From a virus, in the IMG/VR virus record IMGVR_UViG_3300033153_005795, positions 1 through 52,160 of that record: a stretch of 52,160 nucleotides of DNA; one strand, written 5' to 3'. The translations under genes and the position numbers were made by a program. Position 1 is the stretch's first letter, and each line of letters opens with the position of its first letter. Below, in pieces: positions 2,713-33,851 of the stretch. A model generated the notes under the pieces. It searched no databases and was not told the DNA's origin. It saw only the letters and a program-made list of their open reading frames with translations.

Positions 2713-2897
2713 CCTTTCAGTCCCTCGATCATTTCGTTAAGTTTCTTCTGTGCTTCTTCCGTCTCCTGCGAAATAAGTAAGCCGAGGCGGGTCAAATCTT
2801 TTTCCACCTCGGCCATGTCGATAAGAATGCGGAGAAGGTGCTGGCGAACTTCCAGCAGATTCCGCCTAACCTCTTCTATATCACCTATAGCATACAT
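2706..2897 (-). CDS. Small coiled-coil protein
   Basis: 63 residues, almost entirely helical with heptad-like spacing of Leu/Ile (IEEVRRNLLEVRQHLLRI, MAEVEKDLTRLGLLI). It sits between the XhlA-like membrane gene and the tail spike and overlaps the latter by 7 bases, so translation is probably coupled. The function is not recognised. A partner of the neighbouring XhlA-like protein or a small chaperone for the spike are possibilities. One copy of the iterated GCCCCGCAG motif lies just upstream (2913). Confidence 0.6.
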   Translation of the reverse strand: MYAIGDIEEVRRNLLEVRQHLLRILIDMAEVEKDLTRLGLLISQETEEAQKKLNEMIEGLKGC

Positions 2898-2924
2898 CCT
2901 ATTATCCGCCCTGCCCCGCAGATG

Positions 2925-3128
2925 CTACGTTACAATTCTGATAACCAGCATCGAAGAGGCCGCTATAAAAGCAGCTATTATCGCTGCGAAAAGAGACCAT
3001 AGTTGTTTCGTCTGTGCAGTATGTTCGTGAAGGTGATTATTTACCGCCTGTTTTAACCATGCTACGTCTCGGCGGACTTCGAGAAGTATATCATGGTCTG
3101 ACTCACGTTGTTCTGTTCCGTTTGCCAT
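2925..3128 (-). CDS. XhlA-like haemolysin/holin-associated membrane protein
   Basis: 67 residues. The N-terminal half is a charged amphipathic helix with the pattern DILLEVRRDVAWLKQAV followed by N-H-L-H-E-H, and the C-terminal half is one hydrophobic segment of about 20 residues (from W44 to the end). This order, a short coiled coil then a single membrane span near the C-terminus, is that of the XhlA family, which works with holins at the cytoplasmic membrane in host lysis. Its ATG overlaps the upstream stop in a TAATG junction. It is the only recognisable lysis-type gene in the late operon; no endolysin is seen next to it. Confidence 0.7.
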   Translation of the reverse strand: MANGTEQRESDHDILLEVRRDVAWLKQAVNNHLHEHTAQTKQLWSLFAAIIAAFIAASSMLVIRIVT

Positions 3129-3508
3129 TAGTGATGTACTCCATATAACCTGTCAGATAATGCGTTGCCTTGATCCTGCAATTTGTGCAGATGATCACTT
3201 TCAGCATTGCGGAGTTGTCGCCTTATGTCTGATGTGGAGAGAGGAGCCAGCAGTCGCCGCCGCAGTCCTTCTGCGAGATGTCTGTTGAAATTACCCAGAC
3301 TGTATCCCATATTCAGCACATCCACAAACCATCTTTTAGGTTGGTTGAGCCAGAGAGCAATTACGAATGTATGTTCCAGTCTGTGGTAATATGTGAACAG
3401 CCGTTCCTTTAGATAAGGATCGGAGACTTGCCGCTTACACCACGCAAGTATCCCTGATTCAAGGATCCTGTGTTGCCTCGGATCGTAATGACAGGCAAGA
3501 CCAAACAT
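3128..3508 (-). CDS. Hypothetical late protein
   Basis: 126 residues, basic and histidine-rich toward the C-terminus, with no membrane segment. A good ribosome binding site (GGAGG) precedes the ATG. It contains helical stretches (SDPYLKERLFTYYHRLEH; STSDIRRQLRNAESD) but no family I recognise. The position between a capsid-associated beta-helix protein and the XhlA-like gene suggests a virion-assembly or lysis role. Confidence 0.6.
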   Translation of the reverse strand: MFGLACHYDPRQHRILESGILAWCKRQVSDPYLKERLFTYYHRLEHTFVIALWLNQPKRWFVDVLNMGYSLGNFNRHLAEGLRRRLLAPLSTSDIRRQLRNAESDHLHKLQDQGNALSDRLYGVHH

Positions 3509-3523
3509 AAGGCAAACCCTCCA

Positions 3524-4459
3524 TTACGTAGCCGCCGGACAAAGGATACCGGAAACATCTACCGTATCACAGTGGTAACACTCGAACGATTTGCACGAAC
3601 CTGGATCCACGCCAGTCGCCTGTGTCATATCATTCACATAGCAGTTGTAAGCCAGTATTCCAGTACAGGCCGAGATTAGCTCGATTGAATGATCACCTGT
3701 CTGTGTATTCTCCAGATAACAATGCTCAATCAACAGGTTTGTGAGAACTTTGCCGGTTGGATTGTGGATGCAAGCGTTGGCGAAATCACCAATAATCCGG
3801 CAGTTGGAAATCTGTACGTTGTTTTCAACTTCTTCAAGTTCGATGGCTTCGTCTGCTCCGGCATTCGGTGCCAGGAAAGTGCAGTTCTTTATTACCATAT
3901 CATCGGCAGCATTGGCTGCTCCACTCGTCGAAACAGCCAGCGTAGCTTGTTTGGTCGAATTAGCCATCAATACATAACAGTCGCACAGGGTAAAGAAAGC
4001 GGCTCCCACATCAATAGGCATTGCAACCTCATCTATGCCCGTCGCATCAATATAGAAATTTGTAACTGTACAGTTAGCAGCATCTATATCGAATGCTTTG
4101 GCTCCGGTATGCGATAGCGTGAGTGTCGGACGAAGGCTGCCGCTGCCGACGCCGATGATTGTAACGCCCGCAACATCGCAGGTTACAAGAGCCCCACTTG
4201 CAGACTTTGTTTCCGTGTGCCCTGGAGCAACCAGAATTATATCGCCCTGGTTTGCTGTACATTTTCCTATGGCATAATCGACTGTAGCAAACGGCATATC
4301 CCAGGAGTTACCATGCTCTCCGTCATTAGCATCGGTTGCATTGGTCGCACCACTATCAACGAAAAACACGTTGGCATTGCTTAACAGTTTTACCCCCAGG
4401 TTCGACAGGACGGGCATAATATCCCATCCGTACTTGTGAATCAAATCATAAGCTTTCAT
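3524..4459 (-). CDS. Beta-helix virion protein next to the capsid gene
   Basis: 311 residues. After an N-terminal segment of about 30 residues comes a typical parallel beta-helix opening (VFFVDSGATNATDAND, then DMPFATVDYAIGKCTANQGD, a form common in pectate-lyase-like proteins). Rungs with N-C-T and N-C-R turns follow (VIKNCTFLAP, QISNCRIIGD, LIEHCYLENT). The gene follows the major capsid gene after a strong hairpin, so a capsid decoration or spike protein is likely. Several regularly placed cysteines in the turns are notable. A host-interaction fibre is the alternative. Confidence 0.65.
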   Translation of the reverse strand: MKAYDLIHKYGWDIMPVLSNLGVKLLSNANVFFVDSGATNATDANDGEHGNSWDMPFATVDYAIGKCTANQGDIILVAPGHTETKSASGALVTCDVAGVTIIGVGSGSLRPTLTLSHTGAKAFDIDAANCTVTNFYIDATGIDEVAMPIDVGAAFFTLCDCYVLMANSTKQATLAVSTSGAANAADDMVIKNCTFLAPNAGADEAIELEEVENNVQISNCRIIGDFANACIHNPTGKVLTNLLIEHCYLENTQTGDHSIELISACTGILAYNCYVNDMTQATGVDPGSCKSFECYHCDTVDVSGILCPAAT

Positions 4460-14959: not shown

Positions 14960-15068
14960 TACTTTTTTTATATTTTTTTTAATTTTTTTTCGTACCTTGT
15001 AGGTGTGTATATTTTAGACGTGCTATATCCTATGCCCCCCCTTATTTCGGCTTGTCCCCTATCCCAGT

Positions 15069-15082
15069 AATTTTCACTCGCT
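15069..15082 (-). repeat. AGCGAGTGAAAATT element, copy 2
   Basis: Identical to the copies at 14063 and 21212. It lies 58 bases after the stop of the 15141-15332 gene and 110 bases upstream of the strong promoter at 14932-14959. Confidence 0.6.
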
Positions 15083-15140
15083 ATCCCCCTTCCCCTTACC
15101 CTCCCCTTCCCTGTTTATATCTCCTCTCCCCCCTTTTTAT

Positions 15141-15332
15141 TTATCCATTCTTGTTCTGTATTCTTGTCTCCAGCTCTTCTATCTTTTTCCTGTTCGCCTC
15201 TATCTGGTTATCCCTCTGGTCTCTTTTCTCAAGTAATGCCAGGTACTTACTTCCCACTAACCATCCTACCGTTATGCTGCCTACCAGCATCCCCATCACA
15301 AACTCCATATCCGTTCCCGTTATAAATTCCAT
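15141..15332 (-). CDS. Single-span membrane/coiled-coil protein
   Basis: 63 residues from the ATG at 15332 (AAAGGAG 8-9 bases upstream). One N-terminal hydrophobic span (residues about 6-30, MEFVMGMLVGSITVGWLVG) is followed by a charged coiled coil (EKRDQRDNQIEANRKKIEEL). This i-spanin-like layout could also be a membrane anchor or tether. It is the last gene of the ubiquitin-like cassette operon. Confidence 0.65.
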   Translation of the reverse strand: MEFITGTDMEFVMGMLVGSITVGWLVGSKYLALLEKRDQRDNQIEANRKKIEELETRIQNKNG

Positions 15333-15481
15333 CTTTCCTATCTCCTTTCTTTCCCCCATAGGTATCTCCCCTCCCCTGGTACCTTAATTTCCGTTTCTTG
15401 TATTATCCCAATACCAAGGTCGGGGAGCTACCTACTTACCTTCACCTACTGCCCGTAGGTGCTCAATTGTCTTATGCCTTA
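15333..15481 (-). other. Intercistronic region with a short perfect hairpin
   Basis: About 150 bases without a gene. Within it CACCTAC (15443-15449) and GTAGGTG (15455-15461) form a 7-bp stem around five bases. There is no T tract on the transcribed strand, so RNA stability or translation control is more likely than termination. Confidence 0.45.
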
Positions 15482-15688
15482 CTACCCATACCAATCTTCC
15501 TTTATACACTCTCCCAACTCAATTCCTCTCCCCTCCCCGTAGTGAGGTATATCCCCATTCACTGTTATCCTGCCATTCTGGGATAGCCTAACTACTATGT
15601 AGTCCTCTACATACAACATAATAGGCCCATCCTTACCCGCCTGCTTTACCCTTACACGTACCTTTGGTTGTGCTATCTTTTCAGTCAT
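15482..15688 (-). CDS. Small beta-rich protein, family A paralogue 1
   Basis: 68 residues, preceded by AAAGGAG. Alternating hydrophobic/charged strands (KVRVRVKQAGKDG, IMLYVEDYIVVRLSQNGRI) end in a DIPHYGEGRGIELGE stretch. It shares order and signature with the neighbours at 15714 and 15937 and the distant gene at 36492: a strand, an L/F-x-x-x-G-R/T turn, then I-P and a final G-R-I/V strand. The function is unknown; small inhibitor or adaptor proteins often look like this. Confidence 0.6.
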   Translation of the reverse strand: MTEKIAQPKVRVRVKQAGKDGPIMLYVEDYIVVRLSQNGRITVNGDIPHYGEGRGIELGECIKEDWYG

Positions 15689-15713
15689 TCCTTATCTCCT
15701 TTCTATCTCATAA

Positions 15714-15917
15714 TCACACCAATTCAACCCGTCCATACTTATCTGTCTTCAAACCGGCATTATTCTTCTCTGGTATGTACATCTGTAATCTTATCCTACC
15801 GTCCTTCCGAAGGGTAAGTGTCTTATACTTCCCTACCCACAGTTCGATACACCCATCAACCTTTTCTACCAATCTCACAGGAACACCATCCCCTGGATAC
15901 ACTACATACTTATTCAT
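15714..15917 (-). CDS. Small beta-rich protein, family A paralogue 2
   Basis: 67 residues. It begins MNKYVVYPGDGVPVRLVEK and ends NAGLKTDKYGRVELV, clearly matching the gene at 36492-36707 (MTKYVV..., PVIPVWLEG..., NRMGLQVDIVGRIKMGD). The two are true paralogues in two different operons. All-beta with a central L-T-L-R-K-D-G-R turn. No enzymatic residues are evident. Confidence 0.65.
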   Translation of the reverse strand: MNKYVVYPGDGVPVRLVEKVDGCIELWVGKYKTLTLRKDGRIRLQMYIPEKNNAGLKTDKYGRVELV

Positions 15918-15936
15918 TTCCTGTTTCCTTTCTATT

Positions 15937-16128
15937 CTATACCTTTATACTACTACCTCGTGGTATGTACTTATTCAATACCACTCTATTGTCATATCGG
16001 AGACTAAACACTTCATACTCTTCACCCTCGTATAACTCTATCCTATCACTGTCAGCCTTCAGTTCTATCTTCCCTGCTATACCATTCCCGTCCGGTGAGG
16101 GCATATAATATACATTATGTACAAGCAT
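15937..16128 (-). CDS. Small beta-rich protein, family A paralogue 3
   Basis: 63 residues. The pattern IELYEGEEYEVFSLRYDNR then LNKYIPRG matches the central part of the 15714 protein (IELWVGKYKTLTLRKDGR then LQMYIPEK). Preceded by AGGAG. It completes a run of three tandem paralogues that probably arose by duplication. Confidence 0.6.
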   Translation of the reverse strand: MLVHNVYYMPSPDGNGIAGKIELKADSDRIELYEGEEYEVFSLRYDNRVVLNKYIPRGSSIKV

Positions 16129-16157
16129 CTCTTATCTCCTATCTTATACCTTACAAT

Positions 16158-16240
16158 GGTAGCCCCAGCGGGTAGGACACCCTTTCCCTGTCTCTCGTCC
16201 TCTTCTCTACTATGCCCCTCTGCCGTTATCTGGGGCTACC
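16158..16240 (-). ncRNA. Candidate structured RNA: 11-bp closing stem
   Basis: In the 156-base gap between two small genes, GGTAGCCCCAG (16158-16168) and CTGGGGCTACC (16230-16240) are perfect inverted arms enclosing 61 bases. I see only a minor inner stem (GGGT/ACCC near 16170). A long closing stem with no open reading frame inside suggests a structured leader, a small RNA or a processing signal. There is no T tract after the stem. Confidence 0.45.
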
Positions 16241-16284
16241 TACTACAGACCTCCCTGTCTGACCTCCTTGTCCTACTTATCCTT

Positions 16285-16494
16285 CTATGCTCTCAATCCC
16301 TTATACTTCAACCGCCACTTCTTTCCCTTCTTTCCTGTTACCTGCTCAAACTCTCTACCGTACTGGTCAACCAACATCCCATCATCCATTATCTTGAGCC
16401 GTAGTCCGCCCATTCTTACTGCTGCCTCCCTCTCCCTCTTTACCTCTCTCTTCCTCTTTTCCCTTACCACCGTCTCATAACCATACCCGCCCAT
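16285..16494 (-). CDS. Small basic hypothetical protein
   Basis: 69 residues, with AAAGGAG 8 bases before the ATG. The N-terminal half is a Lys/Arg/Glu-rich helix (REKRKREVKREREAA). The C-terminal half has predicted strands (LRLKIMDDGMLVDQYGREF, KWRLKYKG). Its high charge suggests nucleic-acid or acidic-protein binding. It belongs to the cassette operon. Confidence 0.55.
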   Translation of the reverse strand: MGGYGYETVVREKRKREVKREREAAVRMGGLRLKIMDDGMLVDQYGREFEQVTGKKGKKWRLKYKGLRA

Positions 16495-16515
16495 CGTACT
16501 ATCTCCTTTCTTATT

Positions 16516-16707
16516 TTATAGGGCTGCTTCTGCTATAAACCTACCCCTATCAAAGTTAGGGTTTTCCTGTTCACACCACTCCATTATATCTTCCCCGATG
16601 CTCTCTATAACCATCCTACCCGTCAGCCTCTCCATCTCTACCCTCTCACCATTCTTGTATAATATCTCCGCCAACTTATTGAAGTGCTTCCTTGTCAACC
16701 CTGCCAT
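16516..16707 (-). CDS. Small phage accessory protein
   Basis: 63 residues from the ATG at 16707, one base after the TAG stop of the upstream gene, so translation is coupled. It starts LTRKHFNKLAEIL and ends ENPNFDRGRFIAEA. Short proteins with this arrangement (TRKHF..., NPNFDRERF) are common in phages and other mobile elements, but I know of no assigned function. Confidence 0.6.
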   Translation of the reverse strand: MAGLTRKHFNKLAEILYKNGERVEMERLTGRMVIESIGEDIMEWCEQENPNFDRGRFIAEAAL

Positions 16708-16708
16708 T

Positions 16709-17062
16709 CTATCCCTCACCCCCTTCCTCTTTCCTACTCTCTGTGGAATATGGGTGTATATGTCCCTCTACATCAAAGAATGCCGATACCTTTGTCTCTA
16801 CTGTCTCTTTTATATCCTTTGCCAGCTCATCCACCTCTCTCATTATAGTCTCCCTGACGTCTTCCTTATCCTCCTTGTCATATTTCTCAAGCCTATCTTC
16901 TACCTTCTGGAGGAGGTTCCTACCCCATATTCCTATGGCCTCTATCCCCCATCCATCCTCTCTCAATCCCACAAACTCCTCATAGGTCATCTCCTCTGGA
17001 GTTATACCCCATTCCCTCTCCGCCACCTCATACTCTTTTCTATACTGCTCTTCCTTATCCAT
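16709..17062 (-). CDS. Acidic helical protein sharing a domain with the JAMM peptidase
   Basis: 117 residues from the ATG at 17062 (AAAGGAG, 8-base spacing). Residues about 20-50 read MTYEEFVGLREDGWGIEAIG then IWGRNL. The C-terminus of the JAMM protein next door has the same pattern (ISWEEFRSLRKLGWTAEEIR then TWGTAL): E-E-F-x2-L-R-x2-G-W-x2-E-x-I-x2-W-G. The rest is an acidic coiled coil. A shared docking module that brings peptidase and adaptor to one partner is a reasonable inference. The C-terminal HIHPYS string is too isolated to be a metal site. Confidence 0.65.
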   Translation of the reverse strand: MDKEEQYRKEYEVAEREWGITPEEMTYEEFVGLREDGWGIEAIGIWGRNLLQKVEDRLEKYDKEDKEDVRETIMREVDELAKDIKETVETKVSAFFDVEGHIHPYSTESRKEEGGEG

Positions 17063-17087
17063 TGTACTATCTCCTTTCGTTTTACCT

Positions 17088-17861
17088 TTATTCCACCTCA
17101 TTCTCAAATACCGCCGTACCATATGACCCTAATAGGTCAACGTGTATCTCTACCGGTAGCTCAAATCCTTTATTCCTTCTCATCCACGTCATATACTTCG
17201 CTACCATTAACCCCGATGCCACGTATGCACTGTATATGGTCATCCTTGTAGTACAACTCCCTTGCCTGGCCTCTTCATCCGGAAACCAATTCTCCTCCCA
17301 CCATCTCTTTGCCTTCTTACTATTCATAGGCACACAGAATAACCTCATCACTTCCCCCTCTACCCTTATATCCATAAACAACTTCGTCTCCCATCTTGCT
17401 GCCAACTCATATATCTCTTTCCTCGCCCTCATACTATCCACACAACAGAACACCACATCCATACATATATCTATCCACCTCTCATCATCATCTCCTGGCA
17501 GGTTCTCCTGTATCATCTCAAGCCCTATACCTTCCCCCCTTAACCACTTCCTACAATCCCTACCGGTTACCTCCACCTTACTGCTACCAATATCCTGCGG
17601 GGCATACATCTGTGCCCCTACATTCACATCCTCTACTACATCGGGGTCAATCAGTACCAACCGTCGTACTCCCATACACGCCAACTGCAGGGCTACCTGC
17701 CTCCCTATTGCCCCTACCCCTGCTATCACTACCTGATACCTTCCCAGTTGCCTCTCTGTTACCAACCCACTCTGCCTTTCTCTCCATCTATTCATACTCT
17801 GCTTTACTACTCTATACCTCTCATCTGCCCTATCGTCCACATCCCTAACCGTATCCATCAT
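17088..17861 (-). CDS. E1-like (ThiF/MoeB/UBA superfamily) activating enzyme
   Basis: 257 residues. It has a Rossmann nucleotide loop VVIAGVGAIGRQVAL (GVGAIG at 48-53), the acid after the second strand in LVLIDPDVVEDVN (71-79), the family stretch MYAPQDIGSSK (about 85-95), and VFCCVDSMRARK (137-148). A candidate thioester cysteine lies in QGSCTTRMTIYSAY (Cys203). The family adenylates the C-terminal glycine of ubiquitin-like proteins and passes it to a cysteine. It overlaps the JAMM gene by ATGA and shares a cassette with Ubl and E2 genes, so it should activate the 20231-20500 protein. It is a minimal E1 without a separate ubiquitin-fold domain. It holds the cassette's only copy of the iterated GCCCCGCAG motif. 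Confidence 0.88.
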   Translation of the reverse strand: MMDTVRDVDDRADERYRVVKQSMNRWRERQSGLVTERQLGRYQVVIAGVGAIGRQVALQLACMGVRRLVLIDPDVVEDVNVGAQMYAPQDIGSSKVEVTGRDCRKWLRGEGIGLEMIQENLPGDDDERWIDICMDVVFCCVDSMRARKEIYELAARWETKLFMDIRVEGEVMRLFCVPMNSKKAKRWWEENWFPDEEARQGSCTTRMTIYSAYVASGLMVAKYMTWMRRNKGFELPVEIHVDLLGSYGTAVFENEVE

Positions 17862-18838
17862 TTTACTGCTCCTTTCTTTTCCTTCTTACTTCTCTTTTTC
17901 TTCCTGTTTCCTCTTCTCGTTTTACTACCCCTCCCACTTGTATAGGAAGCCATACTGCTATCCCCCTTTAGCTCCCTCTCGACTTCCTCTATATCCTTCC
18001 TTGTGCATCCAAATAGAGCTGTTCCCCACGTCCTTATTTCCTCTGCTGTCCATCCTAACTTCCTCAATGACCTAAACTCCTCCCACGATATATCCAGATA
18101 CGACTCATCCCCCAACTCATCCCCTTCCTCCCTAAACCACGGATACTTTAGCCTACTATATTCATCCCACATATCCCCCGTGGAACACTGTGTTCCCTGT
18201 GCCCCCTCTCCTCCTAATGAGGGTAGATAATCCCTCTTACCTGTGCTATCATCCCACCACCTCTGGCTCTGGGCTGGTACTATTGCCTGTGCTTTCTGTA
18301 CCTCTATATTCCTGGCTACCTCTTCTGCCCATTCCTTATGCCTGCTGCCTTCAAACTCCATCTCCCAGTCAACCACCGTATCCAGCTCTATTGTTACCCT
18401 GTGTTCCCCAAATAACTTATAGCTTAATTCCGTGGTTATATCGTCCCCTTCTCCTATTACCATCATTATTGCCCAGTCCCCTTTACCGAATATCTCCTCG
18501 AACGTCCGCCTATCTACCCCACTTGGGGTACTCTTCATTCCAGGGTGGGTATGTATCCATATCCTCATACACTCCAGCGGCTCCTTACCCGCTACTATCA
18601 TCTCATCGAAATACCTTGCTACATCATCATCATCCAACTCTACTGTTACCCTACTTACCTTCTGCTTTACTGTTACAAAGTCCACTATACTCAATACATC
18701 CTCCGGACTCTTACTTATCCCAAACCCACTAAACTCATTGCCATCCGCCTTACTACTTATGTACCTTATCTTTGCCATTACATACGGACTCATCCTTACT
18801 ACCAGCTCATCTGCCTTCACTTTCTTGTCCTTTGCCAT
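17858..18838 (-). CDS. JAMM/MPN metallopeptidase (deubiquitinase-like) with C-terminal shared domain
   Basis: 326 residues from the ATG at 18838 (AAAGGAG, 8-base spacing; a GTG 9 bases upstream is less well placed). It carries the full JAMM signature: Glu35 in NEFSGFG, then HTHP with His96 and His98, Ser106 and Asp109 (H-x-H-x7-S-x2-D), in the order of Rpn11-type zinc isopeptidases. These remove ubiquitin-like proteins from targets or mature their C-termini. Residues beyond 160 form a linker with the motif shared with the 16709-17062 protein and a Lys/Arg-rich tail. Since the Ubl already ends in Gly-Gly, the peptidase more likely deconjugates than processes. Confidence 0.88.
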   Translation of the reverse strand: MAKDKKVKADELVVRMSPYVMAKIRYISSKADGNEFSGFGISKSPEDVLSIVDFVTVKQKVSRVTVELDDDDVARYFDEMIVAGKEPLECMRIWIHTHPGMKSTPSGVDRRTFEEIFGKGDWAIMMVIGEGDDITTELSYKLFGEHRVTIELDTVVDWEMEFEGSRHKEWAEEVARNIEVQKAQAIVPAQSQRWWDDSTGKRDYLPSLGGEGAQGTQCSTGDMWDEYSRLKYPWFREEGDELGDESYLDISWEEFRSLRKLGWTAEEIRTWGTALFGCTRKDIEEVERELKGDSSMASYTSGRGSKTRRGNRKKKRSKKEKKGAVK

Positions 18839-18865
18839 ACTACACACTCCTTTCTTGTACCTCTT

Positions 18866-20140
18866 TTATTGAGGTATAGCTACATACTGCCCTTGTTCAG
18901 TTTCCTTTTCTGCCTCTCTACAGTATCCACATATCTGCTGTCCGTCCTCCCAGTCTTCAGGCCACATCCATACCTTCCCGCACCTCGTACATAGTACCGC
19001 CTCCTCAAGACACTCTTTACATACCCTTATATCCATCCTCCCTGGAACGCTTACTTTCCTCTCGTTATAGAGGCATCTCACACGATGCCACCTACATACC
19101 TCCCTGCCACACCTAAAGCACTTACGTATAATCCCATTATTCTCCAGATAATCCTTCGCACATCTGCTACATATCCTATCCTTCTCCCACTCCTCTATTT
19201 TATCTTCTCCCGCCTTCTCACTACATATTACACACCTCGATGTTATTGCCTCTCCTTTGGTCGTACTACATCCCCCCTGGATATGTACCAACCTACCGCA
19301 CAGCGCACATCTCTCCAGTTCACTATCCTCTATCCATTCCTTACATATACAGCACCTATGGTGGTCTGTTTGCCCTCTATTCGCTGCTATCTCTGCCATT
19401 GACCTGTATGGTGCACTTCCCAAGTCATACGTCCCCAGCACTGCCTTTATTACTTCTAATATTGCTATTATATCCCCCTCCCTCTTCGCCCTCCACGCTA
19501 TTCTGTCCCCGCCACTTCCCAGGCATATTCTTCTCCAGTATCCCGCCATACCTGCACTCAAGTATGGGTGTGCCTCCTGTCCACTCTCTGATGCTGTCTC
19601 CTCCCACACCAACACCCCCATCTCTTTGTTCATCCTTACCTTAAACGGCCCAAACTCCAACTCCAACCCTTTACATTCCAACCTTACCTTTGGTAGATAT
19701 ACTATCAGTTCCTCCTGTACTTTGCCTCTCCCAACACTGAACTTCACTATCTCTGCTCCCTCTGTCTCATTCTCCAGATATGCTATGGCATCCCTTACCC
19801 CTCTCGGTATCCCTCCCTCCTCTTCCAGTCGTTTCTTCTCTCTTTTCTTTATTGCATACAACCCATCAACCTTCCGCCTCTGGAATTCTATCATATCTTC
19901 TATCAACCTACTCGACCTACTACGCATAGATATGGCTAACTGTCTTAATTCCGCCATTCGCCACCTGCCCTTTAACCACGTCCCATTCCATATACATTCC
20001 TCTGCATCCCCCACCAGTTCATCCATCCGCTCTACATCCCTCGCTACCCTCTCTAACCGTTCCATCACCTCCGGTACCTCCCCTTCTCTCCTTCCGGTAT
20101 TCCTTACTAACCAGTCAACAACTCTATCCTGTATATCCAT
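18866..20140 (-). CDS. E2-like conjugating domain fused to RING/PHD-type zinc finger and further CxxC modules
   Basis: 424 residues. Residues 1-115 are helical/coiled coil. Residues about 125-250 read as a prokaryotic E2 fold: paired strands (EELIVYLPKVRLE), then HPYLSAG (His191-Pro192), the active-site-type string RICLGSGGDRIAW (Cys206) and a closing helix IIAILEVIKAVLGTY. Immediately after is a cross-brace finger, C263-x2-C266-x11-C278-x2-C281-x4-H286-x4-C291-x11-C303-x2-C306, a RING/PHD-like C4HC3 order. Five more CxxC pairs follow (324, 341, 374, 384, 404). E2 and an E3-like module would thus be one polypeptide. It lies between Ubl and JAMM genes. The finger could be a target-binding PHD rather than a true E3. 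Confidence 0.8.
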   Translation of the reverse strand: MDIQDRVVDWLVRNTGRREGEVPEVMERLERVARDVERMDELVGDAEECIWNGTWLKGRWRMAELRQLAISMRSRSSRLIEDMIEFQRRKVDGLYAIKKREKKRLEEEGGIPRGVRDAIAYLENETEGAEIVKFSVGRGKVQEELIVYLPKVRLECKGLELEFGPFKVRMNKEMGVLVWEETASESGQEAHPYLSAGMAGYWRRICLGSGGDRIAWRAKREGDIIAILEVIKAVLGTYDLGSAPYRSMAEIAANRGQTDHHRCCICKEWIEDSELERCALCGRLVHIQGGCSTTKGEAITSRCVICSEKAGEDKIEEWEKDRICSRCAKDYLENNGIIRKCFRCGREVCRWHRVRCLYNERKVSVPGRMDIRVCKECLEEAVLCTRCGKVWMWPEDWEDGQQICGYCREAEKETEQGQYVAIPQ

Positions 20141-20174
20141 CGTATTCCCCTTTCTTCTTCTTTCCTTATACCCT

Positions 20175-20203
20175 GGGGGTGAGGTCTAACCTACCCCACC
20201 CCC
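20175..20203 (-). other. Strong intercistronic hairpin between Ubl and E2 genes
   Basis: GGGGGTGAGGT (20175-20185) and ACCCCACCCCC (20193-20203) form an 11-bp stem with one G-U wobble in RNA and a 7-base loop. It is about 28 bases after the Ubl stop and about 35 before the E2 start. There is no T tract, so partial attenuation or protection of the upstream Ubl message (Ubl in excess over E2) is the likely effect. Confidence 0.6.
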
Positions 20204-20230
20204 TGTCGTACCTACCTACTAACCGTCAAC

Positions 20231-20500
20231 CTATCCGCCTATCAGGAGATAGCCCTTGGCCCCTGTTATCTTTACTGGGGTTATTGATATTCTATCCCCA
20301 TCCCGTAGGATTGTCCCTTTACCGGTAGCCATATCTACCTTTACACCGTTCAGGAGTACCTTATACTCCGCTGGGTCTCCAAATCCCTCTTCTGCTGCAA
20401 ATACTTCACCGATGGTAGTCCCCTCTGCTATCTGTACCTCTTTATTAAACCCTCCATCGGTATGCCAACACGACAAACTTATTGTACCATTCATAGCCAT
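20231..20500 (-). CDS. Ubiquitin-like protein ending in Gly-Gly
   Basis: 89 residues from the ATG at 20500, chosen because AAAGGAG lies 8 bases upstream (the frame is open to 20551 without a site). The profile is beta-grasp: two opening strands (TISLSCWHTDGG, KEVQIAEG), a helix (TTIGEVFAAEEG), then strands (EYKVLLNGVKV, TILRDGDRISITPV), the last typical of ThiS/MoaD/Ub-like proteins. The tail KGYLLIGG stops directly after the second glycine, as in a mature ubiquitin-like modifier. With E1, E2 and JAMM genes behind it, it is the expected modifier. A sulfur-carrier role is less likely because an E2 is present. Confidence 0.85.
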   Translation of the reverse strand: MAMNGTISLSCWHTDGGFNKEVQIAEGTTIGEVFAAEEGFGDPAEYKVLLNGVKVDMATGKGTILRDGDRISITPVKITGAKGYLLIGG

Positions 20501-20562
20501 CTTCTTTACTCCTTTCATTTTCTCTTCTACTTTCTTTACCTTATTTACCACTTACCACTCTC

Positions 20563-20847
20563 TCATACACCCTCTACTGTCAAGCCCTGTTCCTGTGCCA
20601 GTACCTTCAACTGTATCCTATGCCTTCTTCTTACCGGTGTCATCTCTTCTGGCCCAATCTCCAATAACCTCACTACCTTATCCCTGTTGTTACCCTCTAT
20701 CCTGGCTATCGGTACTCCATAGCTCTCCAGTACCCCGTGCCTTGCTACTAACGGGGCAGGTGCCCCTATATCCTGCCCTTTTAGGAACCCTATCAATACC
20801 TCCAGCACGGTCTCCCTTACTCCTGGGGCTTCTGCTTCTATCCGCAC
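20563..20847 (-). CDS. First protein of the Ubl operon, function unknown
   Basis: 94 residues if started at the GTG at 20847, which sits 7 bases after a perfect AAAGGAGG; the ATG at 20853 is only one base from that site. The frame is open to an ATG at 20886. It has an N-terminal strand and a helix (RIEAEAPGVRETVLEVLIGF) and a basic C-terminal half (TPVRRRHRIQLKVLAQEQG). I do not recognise the family. Leading position suggests a regulator or a specificity factor for the conjugation system. Confidence 0.6.
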   Translation of the reverse strand: MRIEAEAPGVRETVLEVLIGFLKGQDIGAPAPLVARHGVLESYGVPIARIEGNNRDKVVRLLEIGPEEMTPVRRRHRIQLKVLAQEQGLTVEGV

Positions 20848-20916
20848 ATACATACCTCCTTTCTTCCCTCTCCCTCTGGTTACCATTACCCATCCCCTCT
20901 CCCTATCCTTCTAATA

Positions 20917-20954
20917 CGCTCGCACGCACGCTCGCACGCTCGCACGCACGCACG
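20917..20954. repeat. Tetranucleotide microsatellite (GCTC/GCAC)
   Basis: A 38-base run of alternating CGCT and CGCA/CACG units lies in the leader between the promoter (20990-21017) and the first cassette gene. It is GC-rich and purely alternating, and could slip during replication or form non-B DNA. In the transcript it would be a repetitive 5' leader. Confidence 0.7.
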
Positions 20955-20989
20955 TCCGCTTTATAAGAGGATGCCCGTCTGCTGCTGCT

Positions 20990-21017
20990 ATTATACGATG
21001 ACTCCGGCGAATGTTAA
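20990..21017 (-). promoter_or_regulatory. Sigma70-type promoter of the ubiquitin-like operon
   Basis: On the minus strand, TTAACA (21017-21012), a 16-base spacer, then a perfect TATAAT (20995-20990). This is the same 16-base spacing as the promoter at 14932-14959. It reads through the microsatellite leader into 20847 and the cassette. Confidence 0.75.
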
Positions 21018-21073
21018 ACAAAAAACCTGAAAAATCTGAAGATAGCAAGATAATGCAAAAAAACAGCAAGAAA

Positions 21074-21192
21074 GTTATAACCCTATAAGGTTATAAGGTT
21101 GTAAGGTTATAAGATTGTAGTGCCGCAGGGCTACAACCCTACATCCCTATAACCCCGTAACCCTATAACCTTATACCCCTACAACCCTATAG
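21074..21192. repeat. Iteron-like array of TATAACCC / AAGGTTAT units
   Basis: About five units of the form AAGGTTRT (21085-21120) face about seven units of the form CCCTAYAA (21131-21192) around a central TGCCGCAGGG. Together they form a long, imperfect inverted repeat between the replication module and the Ubl operon promoter, flanked by AT-rich DNA (21020-21070). Origin of replication, protein-binding array or bulky terminator are the options. Confidence 0.7.
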
Positions 21193-21211
21193 AATTTAGA
21201 TCTTACTCATA

Positions 21212-30685: not shown

Positions 30686-31279
30686 CTAACTATCATAATC
30701 ATACATTAGGTCGGGCATTATGTCAAGAGTAGGCTGTATTGCATAGGCCAGCATCAGATGTATCAGTACCGTTCCTGTCTTACGACGAGTGGAAGGAGAT
30801 CTCGATCTCCACGGCAGCCACAATACCCCGAACCTATACTTCGCCAGCACCAGCGACAGGGCAGCTATTATTCGTTCGGGTTCCTTTACCATTTTGTTCC
30901 GGCTGCAGAGTTCGCTGGGAGACGCCTCAATCAGAATATATGGATGTTCACAGGCCGATAATCGCCTAAATGCCCTTGCCTGCCGTACCGAATCAATAGG
31001 ATCAAGCAGGTTCTTCAGGAGCTCAAACTGGCTTGCTTTCCTCTCGACAACACAGCAGTCGGGATATTCAGCCAGCCGGTAGTCTCCGTAGTCCAGTTTT
31101 ATCTTCTGCGTCTTAACCTTAATCGCCAGGGTACGACGCAGTGTCCTTTCGGGGTGAGGAATTTTGATAGTCGATGGGAACAATACAGGATACTGTTCCC
31201 GACTATCAATCTCCACAATAACTTCCTGCGGAATCTTATATCTACTGTATATTTCCGGGACTGCTGGGGTAGCTGGCAT
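30686..31279 (-). CDS. ERCC4/XPF-type nuclease
   Basis: 197 residues from the ATG at 31279. VIVEIDSREQYP (metal-binding Asp) and DYGDYRLAEYPDCCVVERKA (G-D...E-R-K) form the ERCC4 nuclease signature. The rest is the helical half of the fold, without a helix-hairpin-helix. It would cut branched or flapped DNA in replication or recombination. It overlaps the 3' end of the polymerase gene by 38 bases. Confidence 0.78.
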   Translation of the reverse strand: MPATPAVPEIYSRYKIPQEVIVEIDSREQYPVLFPSTIKIPHPERTLRRTLAIKVKTQKIKLDYGDYRLAEYPDCCVVERKASQFELLKNLLDPIDSVRQARAFRRLSACEHPYILIEASPSELCSRNKMVKEPERIIAALSLVLAKYRFGVLWLPWRSRSPSTRRKTGTVLIHLMLAYAIQPTLDIMPDLMYDYDS

Positions 31280-33851
31280 ATATTGTCTCCTCATATTCTA
31301 TTGGAATTGTTCTTCCTGTCCATTCTTCTATTACTGCTAACAGTGGTGGACGCCGCAACGTTTTATCTACTAACACACGTACCTCGTCTATCTCCTCGGT
31401 AGGTATATCAAGCAGCAATGAGTCATAAGTATTAGATACCATCTTGGTACTCCATCGTCGTCTCTTAATGCCCCGCAGAATCTCGAACTGTGCACTCTGG
31501 AATAACTGTGCACTCAACGTTTGAATAGGGAAATTACATATCTCGTTTAGATATGTATCTGTTCCCCTACCTGTCGCAAATGTCCTGCTCCAGCCGGTGG
31601 GCAATTCCATATAACCTTTCTGTCGCACATCCTCGATTAGTCTATCCTGCCATTCTCTAAAGTGGTGGTGCAGGGAATACCACCTGTCGATTGTAGCTCG
31701 GCAGAATCGAAGGTCCAATTCTATCCCGACCTTGTTGCGGGCAGTTTCCTGGTATTTTCTGGGGCCGCCCCGATAGAGAACCAGGAAGTTCAGAGTTTTC
31801 AGCAGATGTCTTTCCCGTGAATTCTTAATGTCCGGACGTGTCAGGTCGAGATCCGGGAAGATAATCGGGGCATCCTGCAGGTGTAAATCTAATCCCTTCT
31901 CGTATGCCTCCATCAATAAAGGATCCCCGGACTGTAAAGCTGCCATCCGCAATTCAATCTGGGAAAGATCAAAACCAGCGAGGATTCCTCGTTTATGCCG
32001 TGTAGTAAGGCAACCCATAATTTGTTTCGGAAACGTAGGTATAGACGGTTTCTGTGCACTAAACCTACCCTGAATTGTACCACCCCCCTTTTCTTCGCTG
32101 CTTGCTCCTCGTGAATGATAACCAGGCATCGGATACCACGTAGGATGGGCAAAGGAAACACGACCGTCTTTGTACGTTAATCCTTTTCGTTTATCCGTCA
32201 AGAGAGGAGTTGTAAAACTATCTACAAGCTTGCTTGCCGCCCGATGCTCCTGTAACTTTTCGAGCTGCAATCTGCGGGGCCCAGCAGGTAACTTATCAAG
32301 AAGCAATGCTATGTTCTCCTTTTTTATAGCAATCTCTTTTGTTTTCCGTGTGAACATAACCCGCTTATCATTAAGCAGACCACATTCTTCCAGGGATTCC
32401 CCGATGAAGTTTCGTAGTGATTTACTGGATCCTTCTCCCTGTGCAATAATTCCTTCCCTCTCCAGCTCTGAAAAGATAGCTTCTCTTTTTTCTGTAAGCT
32501 GTGTATGCAGGGCCGTAAGCCTTTCTGTATCAAACGCAACCCCGTCCTGTTCGAGCTGGAAGGTATCCCAGATGATGGCATTCCGAAGATCTGCACACTC
32601 TTTTGTCAGCTTAAAACTATCTTCCCCATACCTCTCCTTGATTCGTGCCCAACATTCTTCATACAGCACGAGAGTAGCAGCAGAATCGAGGCAGTTATAA
32701 TAATTCTCCTCCGGATCCCACGCACTCTTTGCTCTTCCGAGTATATCTTTCACTCCGTTGTAATCTGCGATACCAAACAAGGTTGCTCTTTCTTTCAGTC
32801 CCTGCTCCGGTTGCTGTTCATATAACAGAAATCCTACCAGCAACGTATCGTCAACCCGCAGGCGTAAGGGATTTATCCAGTAGAAAAGTTCCTTGTCGGC
32901 GGCGGCCTGATATAACAAATCGTATTTCAAGTTCTGACCGATAAGAAGCCGCTTGTTTGTAGAAATCAGACGGAACCACTCACGGATTCGCTCACGATGT
33001 ACACCATTTTTGAAAACGTATAGTGGTGTTTTGATGTCGCCTTTTTCATCTCGATAGGCAAACGCAACTGTAACAACCTGATCTTCATATTCTACACCAT
33101 CTACAATCTTCGATTTAATTGGAACAAAAACCGTCTGTTCTTTTCCGGCGAGAATACCATAAGTCTCTATATCGACTGCGGTTACGTCAGGACACGTAGT
33201 CGGCAGTTTCGCTCCTACCTCTGGTATTACCATTAGTGCATTGGGTATGAATTCGCCCCGCAGATAGCGGCTGACTAAATCGAAATGGGCCTGCACTGCT
33301 CTTACAAGTGCAGGTTTTCTGCTCGGATGTAAGATTGCAGGATGATAAGTGAAGAAGCAAGCCTTCACATCTATGCCCGGATCTGTTGCTTTGCAGCCCT
33401 GGTATCGGAAGGCTTCCTTGAGGCTCGAAAATCCCTCTATACTATAGGCGGCAGGAAGTCCACACGCCAGGATAATGATCTCTTCGTATTCCTTTCGCAG
33501 CCGTTTTATATCTTCTATCAGGTGTTTATGGCACGCCTTAATCTGGCTATTCCGTGGCTTGCTGCCCTGTGGAACAACACACCGGCAGGTGTTGGTTAAA
33601 TAGATGTCTGCATATTCCGCAAAACCTATGTTGTCGAGGAATTTCTCCAGTAGCTTACCGGCATATCCAATCCAGATCTTTCCCTGTCTATCCTCGTTTT
33701 TACCTGGAGATTGTCCTACTACCAGCAGGGCTTTTTTCTTTCCGGTAACTGCGTACGGTCTTGTTGGAAGCCCCGGATGCTCGGCAGCCTCGTGCAGCGG
33801 ACAATCCGTACAATTTGTACAATCGACAAATTCAATCATTCGATTCTCCAT
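31242..33851 (-). CDS. Uracil-DNA glycosylase / family A DNA polymerase fusion
   Basis: 869 residues with three parts. Residues 1-200 resemble a family-4-type uracil-DNA glycosylase: Cys11, 14 and 17, LLVVGQSPGKNED (42-54), NTCRCVVP (87-94), FTYHPAILH (167-175) and an iron-sulfur-style cysteine set (Cys89/91/107). Residues about 220-420 carry exonuclease motifs AVDIETYG (Asp227, Glu229), NLKYDLL (Asp311) and NCLDSA (Asp389). The rest is PolA: motif A FDLSQIELR (Asp628), motif B around HLLKTLNFLVLYRGG (682-696), motif C NTYDSLLL (Asp810). Motif C has Tyr-Asp-Ser where the family usually has His-Asp-Glu. Confidence 0.88.
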   Translation of the reverse strand: MENRMIEFVDCTNCTDCPLHEAAEHPGLPTRPYAVTGKKKALLVVGQSPGKNEDRQGKIWIGYAGKLLEKFLDNIGFAEYADIYLTNTCRCVVPQGSKPRNSQIKACHKHLIEDIKRLRKEYEEIIILACGLPAAYSIEGFSSLKEAFRYQGCKATDPGIDVKACFFTYHPAILHPSRKPALVRAVQAHFDLVSRYLRGEFIPNALMVIPEVGAKLPTTCPDVTAVDIETYGILAGKEQTVFVPIKSKIVDGVEYEDQVVTVAFAYRDEKGDIKTPLYVFKNGVHRERIREWFRLISTNKRLLIGQNLKYDLLYQAAADKELFYWINPLRLRVDDTLLVGFLLYEQQPEQGLKERATLFGIADYNGVKDILGRAKSAWDPEENYYNCLDSAATLVLYEECWARIKERYGEDSFKLTKECADLRNAIIWDTFQLEQDGVAFDTERLTALHTQLTEKREAIFSELEREGIIAQGEGSSKSLRNFIGESLEECGLLNDKRVMFTRKTKEIAIKKENIALLLDKLPAGPRRLQLEKLQEHRAASKLVDSFTTPLLTDKRKGLTYKDGRVSFAHPTWYPMPGYHSRGASSEEKGGGTIQGRFSAQKPSIPTFPKQIMGCLTTRHKRGILAGFDLSQIELRMAALQSGDPLLMEAYEKGLDLHLQDAPIIFPDLDLTRPDIKNSRERHLLKTLNFLVLYRGGPRKYQETARNKVGIELDLRFCRATIDRWYSLHHHFREWQDRLIEDVRQKGYMELPTGWSRTFATGRGTDTYLNEICNFPIQTLSAQLFQSAQFEILRGIKRRRWSTKMVSNTYDSLLLDIPTEEIDEVRVLVDKTLRRPPLLAVIEEWTGRTIPIEYEETIYASYPSSPGNIQ

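Follow-up and report, generated by a model that had tools for sequence, protein, structure and literature searches.

Does a bacterial virus encode its own pathway for tagging proteins with a ubiquitin-like modifier (Ubl)? The question is raised by IMG/VR virus record IMGVR_UViG_3300033153_005795, analysed here at its full length of 52,160 nucleotides (positions 1 to 52,160; hereafter the window), in which an initial annotation had described a complete conjugation cassette of a lytic phage, with a modifier, an E2-type protein, a JAMM peptidase and a ThiF-type E1 encoded in one operon. All four open reading frames (ORFs) lie on the minus strand where that annotation placed them, within a single run of minus-strand genes from about 21.0 down to 15.1 kilobases (kb). 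The order in this operon is a 107-residue gene, Ubl, E2-zinc protein, JAMM, E1, a 137-residue gene and six small genes (Table 1). Good Shine-Dalgarno sequences precede most of the four cassette ORFs, and the JAMM and E1 genes overlap by four bases. The record also encodes a terminase large subunit, a DNA polymerase, an exonuclease and tail proteins; the terminase and polymerase genes, like its source in a virus collection, bear out the phage origin. That the phage is lytic is less certain: the proteins that were scanned showed neither an integrase nor a repressor, yet the record is linear and possibly incomplete.

Our analyses suggest that the operon very probably specifies a working, self-contained ubiquitin-like conjugation pathway that would be made during infection. 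The basis for this reading is the fold-level identity of the four parts, the presence of all expected catalytic residues, the organisation of the operon, and the way in which highly divergent phages and Planctomycetota have kept the parts together.

The E1 is recognised by the Pfam ThiF family (PF00899; 79.1 bits, 4e-22), as the initial annotation had it. Three E1 alignments (A1, A6 and A9) show no variation in its glycine-rich ATP site, Arg29 or Cys203, the last in a C-T-x3-T context similar to that of the catalytic cysteine of eukaryotic E1s, and the 257 residues of the protein hold no further domain, rhodanese included. The JAMM peptidase matches Pfam Prok-JAB with 24.7 bits, slightly below the cutoff of 25 (E 2e-5), and its closest match among PDB sequences is the 26S proteasome regulatory subunit N11-like protein 6fjv (E 5e-6), which we take to be a Caldiarchaeum enzyme. 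Moreover, the protein keeps the entire catalytic and metal-binding set (E35, H96-T-H98 and, after seven further residues, S106-x2-D109), so that the H-x-H-x7-S-x2-D motif noticed earlier is complete.

The Ubl is a beta-grasp protein matching Pfam ThiS (26.5 bits, cutoff 22.5, E 1e-5). It had been described as a modifier ending in Gly-Gly, and the terminal Gly-Gly is there, but it is not the conserved element. The last conserved feature in the family alignment is [KNRQ]-[IV]-x-G, behind which the proteins of relatives run on for 1 to about 13 residues that show no sequence conservation (KIDGA, NVKGA, KVEGAN, KVDGSDTVTIQAMH and NMKGAIGSEGAEIRLAA are examples of C-termini). Since the window Ubl ends in KITG-AKGYLLIGG, the conserved residue is the internal Gly80 of 89, and the Gly-Gly sits in the variable nine-residue tail. 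The mature end is likely to be Gly80 or Ala81, which is plausible because the tag of CBASS systems may end in either Gly or Ala (PMC10097602). A conserved glycine followed by a variable tail would explain why the cassette has a dedicated JAMM, which is therefore predicted to process the precursor in addition to removing the tag from substrates.

The E2 has no family match in Pfam, NCBIfam, PHROGs or PADLOC. At the same time, H191, P192, C206 and G208 (window numbering) are invariant in 50 aligned E2 cores, and the consensus of these, HPHV-x3-G-x2-C-x-G, resembles the canonical UBC active site HPNI...G-x-[IV]-C. Searched against PDB sequences, a profile of this alignment found UbcH7 and other E2s, weakly (UbcH7 at E 0.03-0.1); most entries in the match list were E2s, and the HP...G..CL of the family aligned onto the HPNI..G..CL of UbcH7. 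An AlphaFold2 model of the core (pLDDT 78.5, pTM 0.73) was compared with known folds by VIA-align, where the upper rows are nearly all E2, UEV and RWD domains, including UbcH7 (Z 7.0), Ube2W, Ube2N and Cap2 (7tqd, Z 6.1), with Z of 6-7 over 110-130 residues. Structure prediction and profile comparison, which the initial annotation had proposed as a check on its E2-type domain with an HP...ICLG context, thus returned a UBC-type fold in agreement with the alignment, and from the active-site motif, the gene context and the predicted-structure matches we regard the E2 fold as established. A model of the full-length protein computed with 18 relatives (pLDDT 52.7) was too poor for use.

The E2 bears on another reading of the same parts, in which they carry out sulfur-carrier chemistry, with ThiS/ThiF-type thiolation of a cofactor or nucleotide instead of protein tagging. 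ThiS and ThiF models are the best matches for the Ubl and the E1, and JAMM proteins occur with ThiS-like proteins in sulfur operons (PMC1779556). We nevertheless consider this very improbable, since the family retains an E2 with its active-site cysteine throughout, the operon showed no gene for rhodanese, ThiG, MoaE or another sulfur function, and the neighbours that recur and carry annotations belong to replication.

C-terminal to the E2 core, on the same chain, the initial annotation had noticed a zinc finger. A zinc-binding part is present, but the term understates it: the window protein has 20 cysteines and eight CxxC pairs, within an array found family-wide. The first eight ligands have C4HC3-like spacing (C263-x2-C266, C278-x2-C281, H286, C291, C303-x2-C306), with more CxxC pairs behind them, and the zinc regions of three close relatives (L098, L092 and L094) have up to 45 cysteines and 21 CxxC pairs. 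Because C-terminal arrays of zinc-binding pairs are common to the E2s of the window's clade, the E2-E3-like fusion appears to be a recurrent design there. The position of the array and the single-chain arrangement suggest that it acts as an E3-like module.

In the proposed pathway, the JAMM would trim the Ubl precursor after Gly80 (or Ala81), and the E1 would adenylate the trimmed C-terminus with ATP and bind the Ubl through a thioester at Cys203. From there it would be handed to Cys206 of the E2, where the zinc array would serve as a built-in E3-like module positioning substrates; the JAMM would also strip the tag from substrates. We infer that the parts act in this order and that the substrate is a protein lysine. 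Several observations weigh against such a pathway. The individual fold matches of the E2 are moderate (Z about 7, and no Foldseek E-value below 0.001 with the core model), and because of this the E2 case rests on the uniformity of the match list and on the active-site motif. The conserved Gly80 of the Ubl precedes Ala, not Gly. Finally, no known Pfam E3 domain was recognised in the zinc arrays of 27 members, and the array is absent from several relatives (remote phage versions) and from crAss-type E2s.

The family to which the cassette belongs was reached through E1 alignments only. Used alone as queries, the E2 and the JAMM found no relatives in IMG/VR, phage or plasmid records, and a genome scan with the single window E1 found nothing; a first E1 alignment led to 80 viral loci, alignments of E1s nearer the window to more, and alignment A9 to loci in the genome scan. 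Beside the viral E1s, the ORFs run from a small Ubl through a long ORF with H-P-[HYF]...C-x-G (H-S-H in place of H-P-[HYF] in crAss-type loci) to a JAB. Since an E1 was what led to each locus, the information lies in how often E2 and JAMM accompany it: both are present in 89 of 116 non-redundant viral loci (counted if the sequence upstream of the E1 spans 4 kb or more) and in 40 of 43 bacterial or archaeal genome loci, nearly all of Planctomycetota. E1 relatives also occur in 78 GenBank phage records, many of them Bacteroides and Flavobacterium phages. The initial description of a full E1-E2-Ubl-JAMM set encoded by a phage, its E2 and possibly E3-like zinc parts joined in one chain, therefore stands, but not as a singular case. 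Apparently it belongs to a large undescribed family in phages (gut crAss-like phages included) and Planctomycetota. The open literature yielded no description of a phage-encoded E1-E2-JAMM-Ubl cassette, nor of the E2-zinc array fusion and its carriage by phages; subscription papers and preprints lay outside this search, and we claim no priority.

Matches in the genome scan are mostly metagenome-assembled genomes of Planctomycetota, often with several copies per genome, joined by a small number of other bacteria and of archaea, a Heimdallarchaeota bin and a Thermoplasmata bin among them; it is possible that cellular copies stem from binning errors or from integrated or co-binned viruses. In an E1 tree with an arbitrary root and sampling seeded from the window, the genome copies fall inside the viral diversity, and the window, on a long branch, pairs with L007 (support 82) among viral sequences. 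A bolder and rather doubtful extension of these results is that this distinct class of systems (Ubl, E2 fused to a multi-zinc E3-like array, Rpn11-like JAMM and E1) is oldest in phages and has its main reservoir there, that the Planctomycetota and archaeal copies are virus-derived, and that phages tag proteins during replication with a single-chain E2-E3, in some lineages together with an AAA ATPase unfoldase. Among the relatives, some have two E2 genes within one cassette (L109, at 1845-2888 and 2842-4014, and L161), and the JAB gene of one crAss-like cassette (L001, 5961-7139) is apparently interrupted by an inserted element that contains small ORFs.

The cellular copies bring in two further readings. 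In one, the phage proteins are decoys or inhibitors that mimic a host Ubl cascade and poison the host E1, E2 or deconjugase without conjugating anything. Viruses frequently carry mimics, and homologous cassettes exist in Planctomycetota as possible host lineages, but all catalytic residues are kept despite identities of 20-40%, and a phage that encodes all four parts has more than a decoy needs, all of which makes this quite improbable. In the other, the cassette is a phage-borne defence module that tags the proteins of competing phages and protects the infected cell or lysogen, by analogy with the part played by CBASS Cap2/Cap3 and Bil systems in bacterial defence. The presence of copies, several per genome, in Planctomycetota fits this, as do the precedents for Ubl conjugation in anti-phage and conflict systems (PMC10097602, PMC7159879). 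At the same time, no effector, cyclase or caspase gene was recognised in the window operon, similarity to PADLOC models is weak, and the cassette lies beside phage replication genes, and we rate defence as rather unlikely, if the least so of the rival readings.

Upstream of the window cassette lie genes for a primase/helicase-type ATPase, an exonuclease and a Sak4-like protein, and recurrent cassette neighbours in relatives are primase, uracil-DNA glycosylase (UDG), exonuclease, ribonucleotide reductase and annealing proteins. This neighbourhood suggests that the cassette is expressed with the replication genes and has its role in infection, not in virion assembly. Ubl and JAB pairs are known from tail-assembly modules (PMC1779556), and structural proteins might be the targets of conjugation or JAMM cleavage, a role suggested for lambda TAPI/TAPK. 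Such a part in virion maturation is unlikely, given that the cassette adjoins a helicase/primase-type ATPase and an exonuclease instead of tail genes (a mild argument) and that its neighbours in relatives include primase, UDG and exonuclease. Returning to a conjugation pathway that acts during infection, its purpose may be to modify host or phage proteins so as to protect or favour phage replication, counter-defence included; we hold this to be quite possible, though short of an even chance, because the cassette adjoins replication genes in both the window and its relatives. Counter-defence, takeover and self-modification would look the same at the level of sequence.

An AAA ATPase recurs as a neighbour of the cassette in many relatives, both in phage and in Planctomycetota loci (L140, 8897-10501; L175, 10714-12273; L196, 1846-3330), with DUF3150 present at some of the loci that bear it, and it is possibly an unfoldase partner of the cassette in these relatives; no such ATPase was found in the 52-kb window record. 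UDG is a frequent cassette neighbour in crAss-like phages. The N-terminus of the window's DNA polymerase (31242-33851) looks by eye like a UDG domain fused to the polymerase.

Table 1. Features of the cassette operon (window positions; the operon is read from high to low numbers).
Feature	Position	Strand	Basis and remarks
Sigma-70-like promoter, TTAACA-16-TATAAT	20990..21017	-	Upstream of operon; consensus scan, 11/12 positions
107-residue first operon gene	20563..20886	-	ORF; homologue at same place in L007
Ubl modifier precursor, 89 residues	20231..20500	-	Pfam ThiS; family alignment; alternative GTG start at 20551
Gly80 codon (family-conserved Gly of K-[IV]-x-G)	20261..20263	-	Predicted mature C-terminus (or Ala81)
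Variable tail AKGYLLIGG, residues 81-89, with terminal Gly-Gly	20234..20260	-	Predicted to be removed by JAMM
E2-zinc array protein, 424 residues	18866..20140	-	N-terminal helical region, E2 core, C-terminal zinc-binding region; alignments, core structure
E2 (UBC-fold) core	19352..19870	-	Used for structure prediction; His191 codon 19568-19570; active-site Cys206 codon 19523-19525
Zinc-binding region, C-terminal to E2 core	18920..19354	-	Proposed built-in E3-like part; Cys columns conserved in alignment
JAMM peptidase, 326 residues, C-terminal extension	17858..18838	-	Prok-JAB; Rpn11-like 6fjv; motif
ThiF-type E1, 257 residues	17088..17861	-	Nucleotide-binding GxGxxG, Arg29; catalytic Cys203 in CT-x3-T, codon 17253-17255
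137-residue gene	16709..17122	-	BLASTP; segment in common with JAMM C-terminus
Six small genes, operon 3' end	15141..16719	-	ORFs

The initial annotation had credited the operon with its own strong promoter. A promoter-like sequence does lie upstream at 21017-20990, but such sites are not more frequent in the region than expected by chance (12, against 10.3 +/- 3.4 in shuffles). Directly upstream of it, at 21068-21199, telomere-like 8-nucleotide repeats (TATAAGGT/TATAGGGT, 11 register copies) make an imperfect inverted repeat with 45-nucleotide arms, and a short GC-rich tandem repeat with units ACGCTCGC/ACGCACGC occupies 20916-20963, between promoter and first gene. A hidden Markov model built from two sequences, the 107-residue protein and its L007 homologue, also picks up L137 (3e-6). 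The C-terminus of the JAMM and the 137-residue protein have a 45-residue segment in common (36% identical, BLASTP E 7e-7). Three of the small genes (15482-15688, 15714-15917 and 15937-16128; 63-68 residues) are apparently tandem paralogues by alignment; no relatives of them were found in the fetched loci, and a comparison with the repeated small genes of Planctomycetota loci gave no support for equating the two. The operon also coincides with a sharply bounded island of strand asymmetry at 15001-21000, where GC skew on the plus strand is -0.47 to -0.61 (elsewhere about -0.27 to +0.1) and the coding strand is 69% purine and 11% C. This island is not a property of the cassette: because cassette relatives lack it, it is specific to the window's phage.

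Bacterial Ubl conjugation has so far been described mainly as an anti-phage defence, plasmid or metabolic function, and since crAss-like and environmental phages carry the complete set themselves, with its catalytic residues intact, bacterial viruses probably tag proteins too. Fusing the zinc array to the E2 would be an economical way of building a ligase into the chain, and the Rpn11-like JAMM, taken together with the AAA ATPase of relatives, is worth comparing with components of the eukaryotic ubiquitin-proteasome system. The question can be tested directly in cultured crAss phages.

In crAss001, gp79-gp76 have the same order as the window cassette (a beta-grasp-like protein, an E2-like protein with H-x-H...C-x-G, a JAB and a ThiF E1) and a replication neighbourhood; their deposited annotations are hypothetical, hypothetical, metalloprotease domain and ThiF. 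Unlike the window, crAss001 has no zinc array and its Ubl extends long past SGA, and its E2 is linked to that of the window weakly (hhalign P 2e-4, probability 45%). The Planctomycetota cassettes (for example L222, L205 and L196) are like the window in an E2 with about 10 CxxC pairs, a JAMM and an E1 of 35-41% identity. Their Ubl ends in K-[IV]-E-G-A, and they differ in lying on cell-assigned contigs, often near an AAA ATPase and in some cases DUF3150, both of which the window lacks.

Among defence systems, type II CBASS has likenesses to the window in the Cap2 E2 fold and a JAB deconjugase. Its E1 and E2 are joined in Cap2 and its tag is a cGAS-like enzyme without a separate Ubl, whereas the window has separate E1 and E2 ORFs and no CD-NTase gene was recognised in its operon. 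The Bil (ISG15-like) anti-phage operons do encode Ubl, E2, JAB and E1 as separate genes. PADLOC models gave a weak BilD match (1e-4) and none for the window's Ubl, E2 or JAMM; remote kinship would be compatible with the missing matches. The lambda TAPI/TAPK module differs in that its Ubl and JAB lie within tail-assembly genes, while the window cassette borders replication genes.

RING-type E3s accompany bacterial E1/E2/JAB/Ubl operons, according to Burroughs et al. 2011 as cited in PMC7159879, and an archaeal E1/E2/RING cascade is known (PMC5654768). Both resemble the window in an Rpn11-like JAMM and in a zinc-binding part, which in the window would be E3-like, but there the E3 is a separate gene, whereas the window's zinc array is on the E2 chain. 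Compared with RING/RBR E3s, the array has C4HC3-like spacing and CxxC arrays, and no Pfam E3 model matched in the 27 members. Prokaryotic E1/E2/JAB/Ubl operons were predicted in 2006 as group 6 of Iyer et al., which includes the PRTRC system (PMC1779556). Against PRTRC models the window ThiF scores 36.3 bits, with a cutoff of 144.75, and its Ubl, E2 and JAMM have no match. Row 6d of group 6 is like the window in its list of components, with separate E1, E2, JAB and Ubl genes (PMC1779556). Judged by its genes, the window cassette belongs to this broad class of prokaryotic cassettes, and it differs from group 6 in having a zinc array fused to the E2.

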